A stretch of DNA of 64,000 bases from Gammaproteobacteria bacterium (GTDB taxonomy: Bacteria > Pseudomonadota > Gammaproteobacteria > Pseudomonadales > Pseudohongiellaceae): NCBI GenBank assembly GCA_029246545.1, contig JAQWMX010000003.1, forward strand, positions 1 to 64,000, read 5' to 3'. The position numbers and the translations under genes were made by a program. Under the pieces are notes generated by a model. The model ran no database searches, had not been told where the DNA came from, and worked only from the letters and a program-made list of their open reading frames with translations. Below are positions 50,742-59,471 of this stretch, piece by piece (within the stretch, counting starts at the first letter, position 1; each line of letters begins with the position of its first letter).

Positions 50742-52283
50742 GTGAAACTTTCACCATTTAGATTTGCCATTGTTGTAGTTATTACCTCTCTGTTATGGGG
50801 TTGTGATAGCCAGGATCAAAATTTAGGTCTAAATGCTGATGAGGAAAGTTCTTCTGAAGTATCTAATCAAAATGCTGCTCCAAATATTTTGGTAATAATT
50901 GCTGATGATTTAGGCGTAGAGCAATTGGCAGCGTTTGGTATCGGTACTCAACCAGCTAGTACACCTAATTTGGATCGTTTGGCCCAGCAAGGGATGAGTT
51001 TCTCAAATGTCTGGGCACAACCCATTTGTTCCCCAACACGTGCAACGCTTCTAACTGGACGTTACGGGTTTCGGACAGGAATTGGATCTGCTACTCCGGA
51101 GAGAGTCGCTGGGGAATACCCAGAAATCAATAGATCTGATAGTGATGAACCCGAATTATCTTTTTTTGAAGGTGCCACTGATAAACCGGTAGAAATATAC
51201 GAGGATCTAGGGCCTGTTTTTCAAACTTTTCGCAGTTTTTATATCAATGATGGTTTATTAAATGGGCCGCCATTTCCTTCGGCTTATGGGCTTAAGTTAA
51301 ATGAGCTTGGGTTACCAGCATTGCTTAAAAATTCTAATTCTGAATATTCCACAGCAGCTTTAGGGAAGTGGCATCTCGGTGATAATCGCAATGGCTGGTT
51401 GCAACATCCATCTAATGTCGGTTTTGATTATTTCTCTATAAATATGCTGAACCAGCCAGAATCCTATTTTACTTGGTTTGAAAATGTTAATGGTCTGATC
51501 GAGAAACGAACTGGCTATACGCCAGAACAAAAAGTTGATGATGCTATTAGCTGGGTAGGCTCGCAGGGCAATGACAAGCCATGGCTTCTCTGGTTAGCCT
51601 TTAATTTACCACACTACCCTCATCATGTGCCTGAAGTAGAAGGCTTAAATAGCAGTGAAATAGAAGCGTCAGACCCTAGAGCGGCTTTGGATGTAATGAC
51701 TGCACGTCTGGATCAGGAAATTGGTCGCTTATTAGCGGGTATTGATGAAGAAACTTTAGAAAATACAATTGTAGTTTTAATTGGTGATAACGGTACTACT
51801 GGCGAGGCGAATGATCCTCCATTCCACCCAGAGCGAGGTAAATTTACGCTTTATGAAGGTGGAGTGAGGGTTCCTTTAATTATTACTGGTCCTGGAATTC
51901 CGCAAGGTGAGCAGTCTTCTGTTATGGTTAATAGCACAGATTTATTTGCGACTCTTATCGAGCTGTCCGGAAACGAAGTGCCTGAAAGTCTTGAGCATGA
52001 TTCGGTATCTTTGGCACCTTATTTTGCAAACCCTGCTGCCAGTTCAGTTAGAGATTTTATATATGCTGATACCTTTTATGAGGGCAGTGGTTTTGAAGAG
52101 GGTGTATTTGCGATACGCAATGACAGGTACAAACTTATTCGCTGGAATGACCATCAAGAGCTTTACGATCTTGCTGAGGACCCTTATGAAAACTCCAATC
52201 TTCTGCTGGACGGAGAATCGGAAGCTGAAATTGCTATCATCGAAGGATTAGAAAATAGAGTATTACAATTACGCTCAATATAA
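50742..52283 (+). CDS. lipoprotein arylsulfatase-family enzyme
   Basis: 513 residues. GTG start, lipobox LLWGC (Cys21). The formylglycine signature CSPTRATLLTG is at Cys96, the metal Asp pair in IADDLG, and a late DNGTTGEANDPPFHPERGKFTLYEGGVRVPLI segment has the conserved Asp-Asn and Lys. C-terminal LYDLAEDPYE is typical of arylsulfatases. It hydrolyses a sulfate ester at the cell surface or periplasm; Cys needs conversion by a formylglycine-generating enzyme, not found in the window. Convergent with the second sulfatase. Confidence 0.9.
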   Translation: MKLSPFRFAIVVVITSLLWGCDSQDQNLGLNADEESSSEVSNQNAAPNILVIIADDLGVEQLAAFGIGTQPASTPNLDRLAQQGMSFSNVWAQPICSPTRATLLTGRYGFRTGIGSATPERVAGEYPEINRSDSDEPELSFFEGATDKPVEIYEDLGPVFQTFRSFYINDGLLNGPPFPSAYGLKLNELGLPALLKNSNSEYSTAALGKWHLGDNRNGWLQHPSNVGFDYFSINMLNQPESYFTWFENVNGLIEKRTGYTPEQKVDDAISWVGSQGNDKPWLLWLAFNLPHYPHHVPEVEGLNSSEIEASDPRAALDVMTARLDQEIGRLLAGIDEETLENTIVVLIGDNGTTGEANDPPFHPERGKFTLYEGGVRVPLIITGPGIPQGEQSSVMVNSTDLFATLIELSGNEVPESLEHDSVSLAPYFANPAASSVRDFIYADTFYEGSGFEEGVFAIRNDRYKLIRWNDHQELYDLAEDPYENSNLLLDGESEAEIAIIEGLENRVLQLRSI

Positions 52284-52452: not shown

Positions 52453-53934
52453 CTATTGATTGTTTTGAATCTGTTGTAACTCGTCGATACCACCAACAGC
52501 TGTCATATGTGTTTCTGCCGGTGGAATTCTACCAGCCAGTTCTTCTTTGATAGATGCATAACGAGGATCATTAATAAGATTGATGTACTCATTTGGATCA
52601 ATAGCATTATCGTAGAGTTCTTCTTCGCCGTCTGAGTAGATAATATAGCGATGATTGTCACCACGAACACTCCAGTTACCATAGTCACCATATGTTGTGA
52701 TGGCAACATCATCCCATTCCATATCAGGATTTTCCAATAAAGGCACTAAGCTGCTGCCATCAACCCATTCTGGGCGATCTAAACCTGCCAATTCAGCTAA
52801 GGTGGCATAAATACTTTGTGTTGAAACTACCTCGTCTGACACTGAGCCAGGAGTTGTGATACCTGGTGCGACTACAATAAAGGGCACGCGAGTTGTTTCA
52901 TCCCACAAGGTCATTTTACCCCACATGTCCTTTTCACCCAGATGGAAACCATGATCGGACCATAGGACTATAATGGTGTTGTCTGTCTGGCCACTGTCAT
53001 CCAGGGCATCAATCATCTTGCCAACCATGGCATCAGCAAAACTGACACTGGCGAGGTAGCCCTGCACGGCTTCTTGCCATTTGCGGATTCCACGTTCCAA
53101 CACCCACGCCATAGTGCTTGAATCCGTATTTGGTTCAATACCAAAATTGAGTGCATTATATGCTTCAGGTACATCGTCCAAATCATTATCCAGATATTCG
53201 GGTAGCACGATATCTTCAACAGGATACATGTCAAAATATTCTTTAGGAGCATACCAGGGCAGGTGGGGGCGGAAGATTCCGGCAGAAATAAAACGAGGAC
53301 CTGTGCGTGCAGCAACCAGTTGTTGACTAATCCAGGTTGCTACTTGGCCGTCAGCCATGGCTTCTGGAGTGGTAATGGTCGGTGCGAAATCGAAATGACC
53401 TGTGCTGATCCCACCTCCTGCTGCATTTTGCCTTGCTGGAGTGGGAGGATAGATCTCATCAGGCATCTGACGTTCGAGTGAAGGGAAATAGGCATCCCAT
53501 GCATTCACATCTTGCTGACCTCCGAATGCACTGGCCACATAAGTATGCGCATGAAAGAGTTTGCCACTACCTAAAGTCAGATAGTCATTTTCCCTGAAGT
53601 ATCGAGGAAGAGATAATTTGTCAGCAAATGTAGGGTTATTACGCCAGTCGCCAAGCTGTGTGTATACACCACTGTTAAATGGGCTCATACCAAATAATAA
53701 AGCTGTTCTAGCAGGTAAACAGGCAGCTGCGGGCGTATGGGCATTGGTAAAAAGCATGCCGCGTGCAGCCAAAGCATCAATATTGGGTGTTTGAGCTTGA
53801 GGATGGCCGCCTAATACACCAACCCAGTCATTCAAATCATCAACATTGATAAATAAAATATCAGGTTTTTCTTGGGCATAGGCTGGTATTAGAAAACAAA
53901 CAGAGGCGAATAAGAGAACTATCTTTTTTAACAT
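52453..53934 (-). CDS. periplasmic sulfatase (iduronate-2-sulfatase-like)
   Basis: 493 residues with signal peptide ending AYAQ. The sulfatase signature is CLPARTALLFG (Cys72, Cys-x-Pro-x-Arg), with metal Asps in NVDDLNDW and a late WSDHGFHLGEKDMWGKMTLWDETTRVPFI segment carrying Asp-His and Lys. The C-terminal ELYDNAIDPNEYINL resembles the iduronate-2-sulfatase/choline-sulfatase group. Substrate probably a sulfated polysaccharide unit or small sulfate ester; not resolved. Ribosome site GGAG. Confidence 0.88.
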   Translation of the reverse strand: MLKKIVLLFASVCFLIPAYAQEKPDILFINVDDLNDWVGVLGGHPQAQTPNIDALAARGMLFTNAHTPAAACLPARTALLFGMSPFNSGVYTQLGDWRNNPTFADKLSLPRYFRENDYLTLGSGKLFHAHTYVASAFGGQQDVNAWDAYFPSLERQMPDEIYPPTPARQNAAGGGISTGHFDFAPTITTPEAMADGQVATWISQQLVAARTGPRFISAGIFRPHLPWYAPKEYFDMYPVEDIVLPEYLDNDLDDVPEAYNALNFGIEPNTDSSTMAWVLERGIRKWQEAVQGYLASVSFADAMVGKMIDALDDSGQTDNTIIVLWSDHGFHLGEKDMWGKMTLWDETTRVPFIVVAPGITTPGSVSDEVVSTQSIYATLAELAGLDRPEWVDGSSLVPLLENPDMEWDDVAITTYGDYGNWSVRGDNHRYIIYSDGEEELYDNAIDPNEYINLINDPRYASIKEELAGRIPPAETHMTAVGGIDELQQIQNNQ

Positions 53935-54263: not shown

Positions 54264-54983
54264 ATGAAAAAAGAAATTATTGGAAATACTAATGTTGCTT
54301 CTGAGCCGGCAGAGAAAATAGAACGCAGGTCTTTAGTTAAAGCAATGGGAGCAGCTACGATTGCTGGATTAGCTGTTAACGCTTCAAAGGCTAATGCCCA
54401 AGCTGATAACAGCAATAGATTTATGCCAATGCGTCATAGTGAAGATGCTTGGCTAGATGAATTATCAGGTAGTCATCGTGTGTTTATAGATACGTCTTTC
54501 CCTTTAGGCGGAAGTGACGGTTTGCTTTACTCAGCCAACCTTATGAATGCTCATGCGCAAGCTTATAATGGTTCTGATAGTGACTTTGCGATGGTGCTTT
54601 GTTATCGGCACATTTCAACGCCTTTGGCTTATAACCATAATATGTGGGAGAAGTATGGAGAGATTTTCAATGGCATTATGAATTATCCTGACCCACAGAC
54701 CGGCGAAGCACCTAAACTTAATATATTGAACTCAGATGAGCATGCAATGTTCCCAGGTCTAACCCTTGATGCTATGTCAGCTAGAGGTGTGAAAATTGTG
54801 ATATGCGCTAATGCAACTGGTTTTTTCGCGGGTCAAGTAGCTGCAAGTACGGATCAAGATAGTGATGTTGTATTCGATGAATTGGTTGCTAATGCAATGC
54901 CTGGTAGTCGTTTTGTAGCTGCTGGTGTTATTGCTACGACTCGTGCACAAGAATACGGATATAGCCTGTTATACGCAGGATGA
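54264..54983 (+). CDS. Tat-exported DsrE-like protein
   Basis: 239 residues. Twin-arginine signal (ERRSLVKAMG) then an Ala-rich hydrophobic segment and AQA cleavage near residue 45. The mature domain has a strand-helix order and a C-terminal MPGSRFVAAGVIATTRAQEYGYSLLYAG, reminiscent of periplasmic DsrE/DsrF-type proteins (which usually end VPAGV-x-x-x-x-x-QE-GY-x-Y). A single Cys in VKIVICANA and another in VLCYRH sit near the positions used by sulfur carriers. Sulfur-transfer role is inference. Its TGA overlaps the ATG of the next gene (ATGA), so the two are translationally coupled. Confidence 0.7.
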   Translation: MKKEIIGNTNVASEPAEKIERRSLVKAMGAATIAGLAVNASKANAQADNSNRFMPMRHSEDAWLDELSGSHRVFIDTSFPLGGSDGLLYSANLMNAHAQAYNGSDSDFAMVLCYRHISTPLAYNHNMWEKYGEIFNGIMNYPDPQTGEAPKLNILNSDEHAMFPGLTLDAMSARGVKIVICANATGFFAGQVAASTDQDSDVVFDELVANAMPGSRFVAAGVIATTRAQEYGYSLLYAG

Positions 54984-57652
54984 GTTCAAAATTAAGTTCA
55001 GCTCCTAACTCAGCTGATTCTTTTGCAGATAAATTAGTTGATACGGGACTAGTCTATGCCCATAGTATGGCGGCATTAGGCACTTTGTTCCTGGCCGTGA
55101 TTTTCGGCATTATTGTTTCTTTGCAATTTTTCATGCCGGAGATAGGTGCTGAGTCATCAGTATTCACTTGGGGCAGATTGCGTTACGCCCATACCCAAGG
55201 AATTATGCTGGGTTGGTTGGGCAATGCATTTCTGGCTTTTCTCTATCATGCGGTTCCAATATTAACGGGTAAACCAGTCAGCAGTAGAGTACTCGGGCGC
55301 TGGCTGTTTGGCCTATGGAATTTTATTGTTGTATTGCCAGGTTTTGTTCTAGTGCTGGCAGGATACAGCCAGCCCATAGAATGGGCTGAATTTCCACTCA
55401 GCATTGATGTCTTCGTTATCGTTGGATTCATACTTGCTGCTATACAGTTTTTACCGGGATTTTTTCGCCCCGGGCTTGATGATCTTTATGTCTCCAGTTG
55501 GTACATCATTGGTGGATTAGTTTTCACTCTTTTAGCTTACCCCATGGGTAATATTATTCCGGAAATTGTACCTGGTGCAGAAAGCGCAGCATTTGGAGGT
55601 TTATGGATTCATGATGCGGTTGGCTTATTTGTCACACCTTTGGCATTAGCGATTTTATATTTTGTTATTCCGGCTGCGACAGGTCGGCCAATATTTAGTC
55701 ACTTCTTATCTATGTTTGGTTTTTGGGGCTTGTTCTTTCTATACCCTTTAAATGGTACCCATCATTATGTTTTTTCAGTCATCCCTATGGCGGCACAGTT
55801 GGGTGCTATTGCGGCTTCGGCATTGCTTGGGGTGATTGTGGTTATTGTTGTGACTAATCTGCTTCTCTCTTTACGAGGTTCTGGCTGGATTCCTAAAGAT
55901 GTTGGTTTGCGTTTTGTCGTCATGTCGATTGTGTTCTATTTAATTGTGAGCATCCAAGGTTCGTTTCAAGCACAGATGAGTTTAAATCAAGCTGTACATT
56001 TCACTGATTGGGTAGTGGCTCATTCGCATTTGGCTATGCTTGGTTTTGCCACCTTTGCTGGAATAGGCGGAATTATTCATGCTTGGCAGAGAATTCCATG
56101 GGCTCGATACAACGTTAAAGCATTGAATTGGTCTTTTTGGTTGTTGGTGCTTGGAATTGGCATAATGTTTACTGACCTAACGCTTGCAGGCATAGTCCAA
56201 GCAAACTTATGGTTAAGTGGGGCTCCATGGCTTGATTCAGTTCAGGCTTCTAAACCTTATTGGGTGATTCGTACCTTGTCCGCAATTCCTATAACTGGCG
56301 GGTTTATTGCTTTGTTTGTTGGCTTAGTTACTGGGCCTCGCGGAACTGGAGCGAAAGCAATTAAACTGGATAGTAAACAACAAAGTTCTTTAGAAGTTCG
56401 TCCTCGTCTTGCATCTACTTCTTTTGCTAAAGAATTAGGTGTCGCTAGTTCGGAGCATATTTTAAGGATGTCTTATTTAGCCGCATCGGTTGCAGGTCTT
56501 ACTTTTTTTGCAGTTTCAGTCTTCTTACTTGGTTATTTGCCAGGTCGAGTCTTAGACCAACAAATTTCCTTAATGACGCCAGCTTACGTTCTCAGACCAA
56601 GCGTTTCAGAACAACGTGGACGAGCTATTTATGCGCGAGAAGGTTGTGCTTATTGTCATACCCAGCAAATCCGTTATACAGAAGCAGACATTAAGCGCTT
56701 TGGAGCACCAACATTAGCATGGGAAGGTCAGTTTGATTTTCCACATCTCTGGGGCACTCGACGCATTGGTCCTGATTTGGCCCGTGCTGGATCAACACGC
56801 AGTACAGATTGGCACTTACTGCATTTATATTCCCCACGCGCTGTTTCACCCTTATCAATAATGCCTTCTTACCAATCACTGTTTGACGATGCGCCAGATA
56901 AACCCAAACAGGAAGCTTATGATCTTCTAGCATTCATAGAATCACTAGGTCGTGCCAGAGAAATAGCTTGGCCTGATGGTGATGTGGCAGCACGTGAACT
57001 TTATCTGCAAGATAGATGGGCATTAATGTCTTTTGATGCGCCATTGTTAAATGCGCATCCAAATAAAACCCAGCCAAAGGGAGAGTTTCCTGAATTTGGT
57101 GAAGCAGCCACGCCTGAGGTTGGTCAGCAGCTTTGGACCGAAAACTGTGTCAGTTGTCACGGTGAGAGTGGGCAAGGAGATGGTCCTGCCGCTGAATGGT
57201 TGCAACCTCGGCCGGCTAACCTGGTTGAGCATGAATATTCGTCAGATAGTGTTGCTGATGTACTTTGGAATGGTGTAGAAGGCACGTCAATGTCTGCATG
57301 GCGTGATATGGCTCCTCAGAATTTAGCTGCTTTGATTAAAGTCGTACAGGGATTTTCGAATGTAGGATCAGTTATAGATGTTAATGCTAATGAGCTTTCA
57401 TTAGGTGAGGAGGTTTATACTGATAATTGTATTCAGTGCCATGGTCTAAGTGGTGATGGTAATGGCTTTGCGACAAGTGAACTACCAGTTGCGCCAACTG
57501 ATTTTATTAATCAACGCTCAAGCGTGGCCCAAAGCATTAGTGTTTTGCAAAATGGTATTGATGGGTCATCAATGGCGCCTTGGAACGACCGTTTGTCTGT
57601 TGATGAAATGATGGCTGTAACATTTTATATACGTGAGTTTTATAATGACTAA
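54980..57652 (+). CDS. fused cbb3-type cytochrome oxidase CcoN-CcoO with two further cytochrome c domains
   Basis: 890 residues in one chain. 1-450: CcoN with low-spin haem His71, CuB ligands His211, His261 and His262, the cross-link Tyr255 six residues before His261 as in P. stutzeri CcoN, and haem His348/His350. A Tyr there supports an oxygen reductase rather than NO reductase. 490-520: a membrane helix. 540-660: CcoO-like monohaem domain (CAYCH 556-560; RRIGPDLAR; Met in SIMPSY 628). 710-795 and 800-890: two c domains (CVSCH 723, CIQCH 817) with likely Met ligands in GTSMSAW and GSSMAPW, resembling CcoP. It reduces O2 to water with electrons from c-type cytochromes. Starts within the DsrE-like gene stop. 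Confidence 0.9.
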   Translation: MSSKLSSAPNSADSFADKLVDTGLVYAHSMAALGTLFLAVIFGIIVSLQFFMPEIGAESSVFTWGRLRYAHTQGIMLGWLGNAFLAFLYHAVPILTGKPVSSRVLGRWLFGLWNFIVVLPGFVLVLAGYSQPIEWAEFPLSIDVFVIVGFILAAIQFLPGFFRPGLDDLYVSSWYIIGGLVFTLLAYPMGNIIPEIVPGAESAAFGGLWIHDAVGLFVTPLALAILYFVIPAATGRPIFSHFLSMFGFWGLFFLYPLNGTHHYVFSVIPMAAQLGAIAASALLGVIVVIVVTNLLLSLRGSGWIPKDVGLRFVVMSIVFYLIVSIQGSFQAQMSLNQAVHFTDWVVAHSHLAMLGFATFAGIGGIIHAWQRIPWARYNVKALNWSFWLLVLGIGIMFTDLTLAGIVQANLWLSGAPWLDSVQASKPYWVIRTLSAIPITGGFIALFVGLVTGPRGTGAKAIKLDSKQQSSLEVRPRLASTSFAKELGVASSEHILRMSYLAASVAGLTFFAVSVFLLGYLPGRVLDQQISLMTPAYVLRPSVSEQRGRAIYAREGCAYCHTQQIRYTEADIKRFGAPTLAWEGQFDFPHLWGTRRIGPDLARAGSTRSTDWHLLHLYSPRAVSPLSIMPSYQSLFDDAPDKPKQEAYDLLAFIESLGRAREIAWPDGDVAARELYLQDRWALMSFDAPLLNAHPNKTQPKGEFPEFGEAATPEVGQQLWTENCVSCHGESGQGDGPAAEWLQPRPANLVEHEYSSDSVADVLWNGVEGTSMSAWRDMAPQNLAALIKVVQGFSNVGSVIDVNANELSLGEEVYTDNCIQCHGLSGDGNGFATSELPVAPTDFINQRSSVAQSISVLQNGIDGSSMAPWNDRLSVDEMMAVTFYIREFYND

Positions 57653-57685
57653 TTCAGTGAATGTAGCTAGCTCAGGAAGAAAACA

Positions 57686-57856
57686 ATGTTGACGAATGCG
57701 ATTGTATTTGGATCTCTCATTATAGCGCTGGTTTATTTCATTGCTTGGTTTGTTCGTCGTGATTTTAGAGAACAGATTGAGCGACCTAAACATCGCTTTC
57801 AAGACCAAGTTGAAGAGTATGACAGTCAATTAATTCAGCAAGAAAATAAAAGTTAA
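57686..57856 (+). CDS. CcoQ-like small membrane protein
   Basis: 56 residues: MLTNAIVFGSLIIALVYFIAW is one membrane helix, followed by basic and acidic residues (FVRRDFREQIERPKHRFQD). Size, single helix and location directly after the oxidase match CcoQ/FixQ-type assembly or stability subunits. The strong ribosome site CAGGAAGA supports it as a real gene despite its length. Confidence 0.75.
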   Translation: MLTNAIVFGSLIIALVYFIAWFVRRDFREQIERPKHRFQDQVEEYDSQLIQQENKS

Positions 57857-57884
57857 AAAAGGCAATAAGCCTAAAGGGTTAAGA

Positions 57885-58832
57885 ATGTCTGAAGGTAAAT
57901 CTAAATTCGGATCTGCGATTATAATTATCGTGCCTATGGTATTGGGAATATTACTCATTAGCGGAACCTTATTTCTAGATGATATTGATAATTCTGAGCT
58001 TGCTGTTGAAGCCACTGCTGAATATGGTCAAAGGTTATTAAGAGATACTGTTTCTTTACTAGGCCCTGATCAAGCAAACCCGGAAATGCGTTATTCAGGT
58101 AACCGCCTAGACTGTGCTTCTTGCCATTTAGATACCGGAGTTGAACAGGGTACTTTGTCTTTATTACAATCAGCGGCTCGTTATCCCAGGTTTTCGGGTA
58201 GAGACGGTGGGGAGCGCGACCTTAAGGATAGGATTAATGGCTGTATGCAGCGCAGTATGAATGGCAGGCCATTCTCACGAGACAGTGTTGAATTAGCCGC
58301 TATGGAAACTTATATCCTAAGTTTAGGTGCACAACATGCAGCGATGAGTGAAAGTAAAACAGTGGCAGTTGAGCCGCCTGCTTTTGTTGAGCCACAACGT
58401 AGAGCTAATGTAGAAGCAGGTCAGGTGGTTTATGAGCAGCATTGCCTAATATGTCATGGCGAAAATGGAGAAGGGCTTAAAGAAACCACTGATATTCTTA
58501 ATGGTTATTTATTCCCGCCAGTTTGGGGAGTAGATAGTTATAACAATGGCGCCGGGATGAATCGCGTATTAACGGCAGCTCGTTTTATTAAGGCACGTAT
58601 GCCATTAGGAGAAGCGGTTTTAACGGATGCTGAAGCTTATGATGTATCTGCTTATATCAACTCTCAACCGAGACCGGTCAAAAGTAATCTTGAACAAGAT
58701 TATCCAGATTTAACGCGTAAACCTATTGATAGTCCTTATCCACCTTACGCTGATCCATTTACTCAAGAACAGCATAAATACGGACCCTTCGATCCTATTC
58801 GGAAATATTATGAAAGTCTGAGCTCAAACTAA
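57885..58832 (+). CDS. membrane-anchored diheme cytochrome c, TsdA (thiosulfate dehydrogenase)-like
   Basis: 315 residues. N-terminal membrane anchor (about 10-30). First haem CASCH (77-81) with the downstream Cys120 in RINGCMQRSMNGRPF: TsdA enzymes have a Cys thiolate as the axial ligand in this INGC motif. Second haem CLICH (187-191), and FIKARMP (Lys236, Met239) is where TsdA keeps its Lys/Met ligands. It would oxidise two thiosulfates to tetrathionate, or the reverse, passing electrons to the oxidase. Other diheme electron carriers cannot be excluded by eye. Last gene of the four-gene module; 28 bp after the CcoQ-like gene. Confidence 0.75.
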   Translation: MSEGKSKFGSAIIIIVPMVLGILLISGTLFLDDIDNSELAVEATAEYGQRLLRDTVSLLGPDQANPEMRYSGNRLDCASCHLDTGVEQGTLSLLQSAARYPRFSGRDGGERDLKDRINGCMQRSMNGRPFSRDSVELAAMETYILSLGAQHAAMSESKTVAVEPPAFVEPQRRANVEAGQVVYEQHCLICHGENGEGLKETTDILNGYLFPPVWGVDSYNNGAGMNRVLTAARFIKARMPLGEAVLTDAEAYDVSAYINSQPRPVKSNLEQDYPDLTRKPIDSPYPPYADPFTQEQHKYGPFDPIRKYYESLSSN

Positions 58833-58880: not shown

Positions 58881-59471
58881 TTATCTGATGGCATTAGAAA
58901 GTTGAGTAGCATTAATTGGAATCATAAGATGAGCATCGGAAGTGCCTTCTAACATCATCCAAGGCAGGCCTATTCCTGCAATAGCATTTGCACGTTGACT
59001 TGCAGTTGGCATACCTAGGTTTTCTGACAGGGCATACGGCAGTGCAACTACCCATAATAGGTTAATTTGATCATTCTCTTCATAAAGGTAATATCTCAGT
59101 GACCCAAATTCTTGAGGAGGGATTAAGCCATCACTTTCAGCTTGGTCTATAGCTGATTGAAGTTCTTCGTCTGCTAAGCCCTGTGCTGTCATTCTGGCAA
59201 TGAAGTCTGTCCTTTGCGAACTAGCGGTAGGGGTGCAGCGTGTATAACCATCCGCATGCTTAGGTTGGCATTCAACGTGGTTAGTGCCTGCACGTAAAAT
59301 AACACGCTCAATGTTTTCATCATAAGTGAAAACAGTAGCATCAGCATGCAACTCAACTGGCAAGTGTCAAACAGCTCTTTGAATATCTTCAGCGCTGAAT
59401 TGAGCATTAGCTATAACTGGTATGAACAAGCTGGGAAAAATTAATGTACTGATTAATTTAAGATGTTTCAT
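58881..59471 (-). pseudogene. secreted protein gene with an in-frame opal codon
   Basis: From ATG 59471: signal peptide (cleavage near ANAQ) and FSAEDIQRAV, then TGA at 59367-59369, then the same frame continues HLPVELHADATVFTYDENIERVILRAGTNHVECQPK and through another 150 codons to 58881. One base change from CGA (Arg) or TGG would restore it. The family is not recognised; a CxP and Cys at 52-61 could pair. Either a recent pseudogene or sequencing error. Confidence 0.75.

Follow-up and report, generated by a model that had tools for sequence, protein, structure and literature searches.

The stretch of DNA analysed here, called the window, comprises 64,000 nucleotides (positions 1 to 64,000, forward strand, of contig JAQWMX010000003.1 in assembly GCA_029246545.1) from a gammaproteobacterium of the family Pseudohongiellaceae. 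Between positions 54,264 and 58,832 it carries a four-gene module that encodes an exported DsrE-fold protein, a single-chain haem-copper oxidase of the CcoN-CcoO-c-c type, a single-helix peptide and a putative dihaem thiosulfate dehydrogenase, TsdA. The best reading of these genes is a sulfur-oxyanion:O2 oxidoreductase module in its thiosulfate version, with a predicted activity. We place the probability that the module forms a short periplasmic respiratory chain oxidising thiosulfate with O2 at roughly two in three (0.68).

Architecture of the oxidase

An earlier sequence-only reading of the window had proposed four reading frames, all of which are present, and the first two are joined by the ATGA coupling it described: the oxidase ATG at 54980 overlaps the TGA (54981-54983) of the 239-residue frame upstream. 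The oxidase gene (54980..57652, forward strand, as are the other three) encodes 890 residues. As had been claimed, this one chain holds an oxidase core, a CcoO domain and two c domains, which Pfam matches as COX1, FixO and two cytochrome c domains. The CcoN-like catalytic core covers residues 25-435 (55052..56284) and includes the CuB and haem histidines, Tyr255 and Gln326. The CcoO/FixO domain lies at residues 541-642 (56600..56905), and is followed by two CcoP-like cytochrome c domains with best stretches at residues 712-786 (57113..57337) and 808-885 (57401..57634). Each of these three domains has a CxxCH motif, starting at residues 556, 723 and 817. The c domains first regarded as extra are best read as the CcoP pair, and the four haem sites first expected become five (b, b3 and three c, the b haems being deduced from histidines), which is the normal cbb3 complement in one chain and not an enlarged one. 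The CcoP membrane helix was not detected by simple hydropathy, which places the last hydrophobic stretch at residues 494-512, ahead of CcoO.

Twenty-nine loci were compared: the window, 21 relatives from one genome-contig scan (L033-L053; 55-83% identity in the oxidase best segment), three stretches (L075-L077) that came from a phylum search centred on Acidobacteria, the plasmid loci L065 and L066, and L070 and L074, from two genomes in which a sulfite dehydrogenase occurs. Three further Paraburkholderia fungorum plasmid records and two of Komagataeibacter xylinus stand outside this count. The loci span Gammaproteobacteria, Acidobacteriota, acetic acid bacteria, Paraburkholderia and some metagenome-assembled genomes (MAGs) labelled Alphaproteobacteria. 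In 12 of them (window, L033-L040, L042, L075, L076) one frame encodes the whole oxidase, and in 15 (L043-L052, L065, L066, L070, L074, L077) it is divided between a CcoN and a CcoO-c-c gene. The oxidase and DsrE genes of L041 are broken and spread over several frames, perhaps through assembly errors, and the oxidase of L053 is truncated by the contig end. Because the single chain recurs in 12 loci and the same domains stand in the same order in the 15 two-gene loci, both a frameshift and a misassembly are ruled out. The single chain is real, yet it is not what defines the system, and the fusion is not the requirement it had been taken for.

Catalytic residues and phylogeny

The window oxidase scores above the cut-off for FixO (125.2 bits, cut-off 29.6) and below it for the curated CcoN model (161.9 bits, cut-off 583.15), the NCBIfam ccoO equivalog (115.2 of 200.65 bits), TIGR00782 (48.7 of 179.95), the fused cbb3 I/II model PRK14485 (289.2 of 1080) and the II/cytochrome c fusion model PRK14486 (145 of 447). 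The proteins of the last two models are likewise fusions of these domains, whereas the module chain joins N, O and two c domains.

One residue comparison covered 19 of the 22 family rows, L041, L052 and L053 (short or broken) being left out. For canonical CcoN it covered 17 of 29 loci, the 12 on the other strand being left out, and all 17 come from one order. The CuB ligands His211, His261 and His262, the haem ligands His348 and His350, and Tyr255 are kept in all 24 module rows of the alignment; the remaining haem ligand, His71, is kept in 23, with one gap in L040, whose contig starts later. In the order H211, H261, H262, H348, H350, Y255 and H71, these residues of the window protein align with positions 207, 257, 258, 345, 347, 251 and 60 of Pseudomonas stutzeri CcoN. 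The earlier doubt about proton-channel residues is answered by Thr219, Tyr227, Ser244 and Tyr320, all present, which we take to be K-path residues from their role in cbb3.

Gln326 occurs in 24/24 module rows, in the one SorAB row and in all three rows of a sister clade, where 17/17 canonical sequences have glutamate. Its counterpart in P. stutzeri CcoN is position 323, and E323 is presumably the conserved cbb3 glutamate discussed in the literature; the module oxidases have glutamine in place of this canonical residue beside haem b3. According to an excerpt of PMC8398457, a conserved glutamate of cbb3 oxidases is hydrogen-bonded to the haem b3 histidine and explains the low potential of haem b3, so that the change to glutamine is a natural experiment on a residue thought to set that potential. 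Position 212 is aspartate in module and SorAB rows, asparagine in canonical rows and tyrosine in sister rows.

In a maximum-likelihood CcoN tree the 24 module rows group together with a support of 100/100, and a very long branch, of the kind about which the program warns, separates them from canonical CcoN. The oxidases of Sinorhizobium meliloti pSymA and of genome G454 are the sisters of the module clade, although the support for this join is only 94/88. On these residues and this tree, we assign the module oxidase to the C-family haem-copper O2 reductases, not to the nitric oxide (NO) reductases, and to a deep separate branch in which the canonical glutamate is changed to glutamine. Like the canonical cbb3 enzyme (CcoNOQP), it has the CuB and haem ligands, the tyrosine, the K-path-type residues, the FixO domain, three c haems and a small single-helix peptide at the CcoQ place. 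It differs in being one chain or N plus O-c-c, in the undetected CcoP membrane helix and in the glutamine. The sister clade (S. meliloti pSymA, L067; L056 and L071) shares the domain order, Gln326 and Tyr255, with single chains again in L056 and L071 and N plus O-c-c in L067, but is only ~35% identical in CcoN and has tyrosine at 212. No match to TsdA, SorA, DsrE or the peptide was found near the three sister-clade oxidases within the 5.1, 14.5 and 17 kb examined. The fused N-O-c-c oxidase of L071 (L071:1558-9684) adjoins an RND efflux pump and GGDEF proteins.

Sulfur dehydrogenase partners

The last gene of the module (57885..58832) encodes the predicted TsdA, of 315 residues with an N-terminal hydrophobic anchor or signal. 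Pfam finds PF21342 (SoxA/TsdA) and a cytochrome c domain, CxxCH motifs lie at 77 and 187, and the protein matches TsdA of PDB entry 4wq7 (E 5e-34; 73 of 191 aligned residues identical). TsdA adjoins the oxidase in 26 of the 29 loci. The exceptions are L070, L074 and L053, which is cut by its contig end and in whose genome a single PF21342 match lies on a different contig. A recount by tblastn over the 29 loci gave 27 TsdA and three SorA matches, from which we did not count a TsdA match (5e-4) inside the CcoO-c-c gene of L070 and a SorA match (30% identity) at the far edge of L077. This SorA-like stretch (L077:1-648) lies ~10 kb from the oxidase in a locus that has a TsdA of its own.

In the numbering of Allochromatium vinosum TsdA, Cys123, Arg119, Ser127 and Met209 are kept in 26/26 module proteins, and Arg109 in 24/26, with lysine in the other two; the catalytic and haem-ligand roles of such residues are described in excerpts of PMC4423706 and PMC5146829. 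The residue before Met209 is arginine in 22 of the 26 module rows, where A. vinosum has lysine and Campylobacter jejuni asparagine. Every catalytic residue tested thus fits a TsdA and not a carrier, which sustains the predicted identity of this partner. The earlier doubt that it might be a dihaem carrier is answered by the cysteine, kept where the carrier CccC has methionine.

Two other identities were considered and ruled out. SoxA is inconsistent with the presence of Ser127 and with a TIGR04484 score of 35.4 of 110 bits, and a CccC-type carrier is inconsistent with the cysteine ligand in 26/26 module proteins, as methionine replaces the cysteine haem ligand in Campylobacter CccC (PMC5146829, excerpt). 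The same excerpt reports that CccC, a TsdA relative, feeds a cb-oxidase, a likeness to the module that stands beside this difference in ligand. With A. vinosum TsdA (4wq7/4v2k) and the TsdBA-type chain 5lo9, the module proteins share both haem sites, the cysteine ligand, Arg119, Ser127 and Met209; they differ from the A. vinosum enzyme in their N-terminal hydrophobic stretch, in the arginine at the place of Lys208 and in having an oxidase as partner in the same operon. PF21342 is found in 22/22 carrier genomes and is the sole copy in 19. SoxB reaches its cut-off in none of the 22, with weaker matches in seven, the window genome included.

In two of the 29 loci (L070 and L074, of genomes G1075 and G1605) the sulfite dehydrogenase SorAB stands in TsdA's place. 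The row in G1075 reads SorA, a SorB-like cytochrome, another c-type protein, CcoN, CcoO-c-c and the peptide, with SorA at 471 bits (cut-off 600) and the SorB-like cytochrome at 72.6 of 93; G1605 has the same gene order and a SorA 83% identical to it. No TsdA or DsrE match was found beside the SorAB oxidases in the 16 and 19 kb examined. These loci therefore share the oxidase clade and the peptide with the TsdA modules, but have a sulfite instead of a thiosulfate dehydrogenase and no DsrE match. As oxidases of this clade are paired with SorA-SorB in two genomes, the common partner is a sulfur-oxyanion dehydrogenase, and the wider wording of the sequence-only reading, a chain that is thiosulfate- or otherwise sulfur-linked, is strengthened. 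The DsrE protein would go with TsdA and not with SorAB, a pattern on which two genomes bear.

The DsrE-fold protein and the small peptide

The first gene (54264..54983) encodes an exported protein of 239 residues with a Tat-like signal (RR at 21-22) and a single invariant cysteine, Cys181. A DsrE-like gene is present in 25/29 loci, with no match in L049, L070, L074 or the 3.2-kb contig L052. R21, R22 and C181 are invariant in all 19 aligned members, which comprise the window protein and 18 of 24 relatives; five second paralogues from Acidobacteria and L048 were left out of this alignment. The name DsrE-like, given before on sequence, holds for the predicted fold but has no Pfam support: the window protein matches no Pfam family, and the eight families that one or other of the 19 members reaches at E <= 1 do not include PF02635. 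The AlphaFold model of the window protein (pLDDT 84.1) superposes on 2pd2 with a VIA Z of 13.8 and a root-mean-square deviation of 1.6 over 107 residues, on 1l1s with Z 13.2, and on chain A of DsrEFH (2hy5) with Z 9.8 and a deviation of 3.3 over 116 residues. A Foldseek search with this model gave no match at E <= 0.001, and a profile search of the alignment against PDB sequences returned nothing relevant. A second exported DsrE-like paralogue, with a cysteine at the same place, adjoins the first in five Acidobacteria loci (L043, L044, L045, L047, L051).

Between the oxidase and TsdA, a 56-residue peptide with a single helix is encoded at the CcoQ position (57686..57856). It was found in 25/29 loci, with no match in L051, L053, L075 or L076, and the family motif R-x3-E-x-P-K after the helix (R28, E32, P34 and K35) is invariant in the 15 of 25 members aligned, one of them from a SorAB locus. 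The description CcoQ-like covers only its position and its single helix. The window member gave no match to FixQ (PF05545), which two of the 15 members reach with a best E of 0.0072.

All four window genes bear signs of purifying selection in comparison with L033 and L034. The dN/dS ratio is 0.06-0.11 where dS is finite, and pN/pS is 0.16-0.24 for comparisons with saturated dS. Together with the recurrence of the arrangement in the 21 relatives of the scan, this marks the module as more than a chance grouping.

Distribution and genome context

Compared across genome databases, the gene neighbourhood is conserved across phyla in varying arrangements. The DsrE gene lies upstream on the same strand in the window, in L033-L035 and in eight of nine Acidobacteria-labelled loci, and downstream on the opposite strand in six (L036-L040, L042). 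Because the gene order varies, the association is not one inherited order. The module is rare: at E <= 1e-100 its oxidase was matched within the class in 2 of 369 genomes (besides the window genome G454, with a sister-type oxidase), in 3 of 398 of the phylum (the window genome, G1075 and G1197, the last of sister type) and in 5 of 297 in an Acidobacteria-centred draw, and six other listed genomes of the window's family gave no match at 1e-60. The module also occurs in some MAGs labelled Rhodospirillaceae and Alphaproteobacteria, labels that may be wrong. On isolate plasmids of Paraburkholderia and acetic acid bacteria the genes for DsrE, TsdA, CcoN, CcoO-c-c and the peptide stand together with one for a dihaem cytochrome, whose two c domains and position alone are the grounds for naming it TsdB-like. 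Sporadic occurrence over phyla and presence on these plasmids point to horizontal transfer of the module.

Around the module of a P. fungorum plasmid (L065) lie a YeeE/YedE pair, two SBP_bac_11 proteins, a TDT transporter and two ctaD genes, and an annotated sulfate-binding protein adjoins the module of K. xylinus pGX3. Such surroundings suggest larger sulfur islands around the plasmid modules. An excerpt of PMC8115675 describes a transcriptome of subseafloor fluids with tsdA transcripts at high levels and cbb3 transcripts in greater number in 1383C Deep. The close relative L033 (NORP41) comes from a record with 1383C in its title.

Two COX1 proteins are encoded in the window genome, which measures 2.25 Mb and is 97.4% complete: the module oxidase and a far higher-scoring one (459 bits) that we read as an A-type CtaD. 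The standard oxidase parts ccoG, ccoS and a second CcoO (FixO) were looked for and not found in this genome. Across the 22 carrier genomes, ccoG passes its cut-off in four and ccoS in six, and seven have a near-full-length canonical FixO.

Proposed mechanism and alternatives

In the proposed chain, TsdA would sit on the periplasmic side of the inner membrane, join two thiosulfates into tetrathionate at the Cys/His-ligated haem and send two electrons by way of its second haem to the C-terminal c haems of the fused oxidase, possibly by direct contact. From these c domains electrons would run to the CcoO haem, to haem b and to the haem b3-CuB site, where O2 would become water, the protons being taken up along a K-type path, perhaps with proton pumping as well. 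The single-helix peptide may be a structural or assembly subunit of the oxidase. On its single invariant cysteine, the exported DsrE-fold protein probably holds or transports a sulfur species that TsdA forms as intermediate or product. With the c domains tethered, a soluble carrier would be unnecessary in principle, and the standard assembly factors would presumably not be needed. The abstract of PMC9562282 puts the thiosulfate/tetrathionate couple at +198 mV, from which we infer that electrons would enter at the level of cytochrome c and bypass quinone and the bc1 complex.

Several observations weigh against this proposal. Neighbouring genes need not exchange electrons directly, and the AlphaFold model of the fused oxidase, for which 10 of the 12 single-chain sequences were aligned, was not used because of its pLDDT of 49.7. 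The DsrE-fold protein of the window and the annotated Paraburkholderia/Acetobacter DsrE gave no blastp match at 1e-2, and hhalign of the two families gave a weak probability of 8.9%, with the cysteines paired, so that orthology is not shown by these sequence comparisons. Since a gene annotated as a sulfite-exporter-type TauE/SafE protein lies near the sister oxidase of S. meliloti (L067), the module clade is not quite alone in having a sulfur gene nearby. Cytochrome c1, which could feed the oxidase, is present in 13 of the 22 carrier genomes, the window genome included.

The last of these points bears on the strongest rival, in which the oxidase serves as a terminal oxidase for low-O2 respiration in general, receiving its electrons from bc1 through a soluble cytochrome c, and TsdA is co-expressed and feeds a common cytochrome pool. 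The A-type CtaD of the window genome speaks for it as well. Against it, a sulfur dehydrogenase is the partner in 28 of the 29 loci (TsdA in 26, SorAB in two, the 29th being cut), and canonical CcoO is found in only seven of 22 carriers. Furthermore, nine Acidobacteria-labelled genomes with the module have no cytochrome c1 match, although other complexes could serve there. We regard this rival as unlikely, but as the one to be taken most seriously.

A second rival has TsdA working as a tetrathionate reductase, with the cluster as a redox switch whose electron sink is either O2 or tetrathionate. TsdA enzymes can run either way. Combined with the arginine before Met209, this makes the direction of the module enzyme not predictable, a further point against the thiosulfate-oxidising proposal. 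According to an excerpt of PMC5146829, the C. jejuni enzyme favours tetrathionate reduction and the surroundings of haem 2 govern direction. In the module, that arginine makes these surroundings different. Nonetheless, the partner is an O2 reductase and an oxidative sulfite dehydrogenase takes the same position in two genomes, which leaves the redox switch quite improbable. Finally, the very long branch from canonical CcoN and the unusual Gln326 and Asp212, the latter directly after the first CuB histidine, might suggest an NO reductase or other non-O2 haem-copper reductase, but the family-classifying residue is Tyr255 in every row, and tyrosine there marks O2 reductases where NO reductases have E, N, Q or D (PMC8756737, Table A4, excerpt), which rules out the cNOR, qNOR, sNOR, eNOR and gNOR types and makes the whole idea highly implausible.

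The thiosulfate:O2 chain thus remains our preferred account. A more ambitious proposal, which we hold only tentatively and at somewhat less than even odds, is that the Gln326/Asp212-type enzymes form a separate family of haem-copper O2 reductases, not named before, that specialises in sulfur oxyanions of the periplasm. They would take electrons directly from TsdA or SorAB, act as thiosulfate (or sulfite):O2 oxidases without quinone, bc1 or ccoG/ccoS, and move as a unit over phyla and plasmids, with a DsrE-fold periplasmic sulfur carrier in the thiosulfate form.

C-family oxidases, CcoN-CcoO and CcoO-c fusions, TsdA and SorAB are already known. The oxidase-TsdA-DsrE set is not described in the titles and opening abstracts of the open PubMed Central papers matched. 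Nor do these describe the deep oxidase branch with glutamine for glutamate, its regular occurrence beside TsdA or SorAB, or the accompanying DsrE protein and peptide. If the proposed chain is correct, thiosulfate oxidation by TsdA has its own hard-wired oxidase in some bacteria, and 'thiosulfate to O2' could therefore be read in genomes from one operon. The module is directly testable because cultured carriers exist, namely Acetobacter ascendens LMG 1590, K. xylinus E25 and P. fungorum ATCC BAA-463.

Neighbouring genes and regulatory sites

A search that allowed up to two mismatches found no FNR-type box ahead of the operon in any of three loci, the window, L033 and L034. Promoter-like sites are rarer than in shuffled sequence (11 against a mean of 15.2) and terminator-like sites commoner (nine against 4.7), and none of either kind is tied to a function.

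Downstream of TsdA, on the reverse strand, lies a gene for an exported repeat protein (58884..59471) of a family we call F8, which often adjoins the module and occurs in 13 of the 22 loci compared. F8 proteins have one or two copies of a domain of ~160 residues with the motif PWMMREGTPxAHLMIPIN and no convincing Pfam match, and the in-frame TGA of the window copy reflects a broken gene or a sequence error. A rhodanese-domain protein is encoded near the module in L033 (10820-11218) and L034 (9877-10299; Pfam match on this copy). On the other side of the window module lie two genes for proteins that are sulfatase-like by the look of their sequences (50742-52283 and 52453-53934), and pairs related to them are present in L034 and L041.

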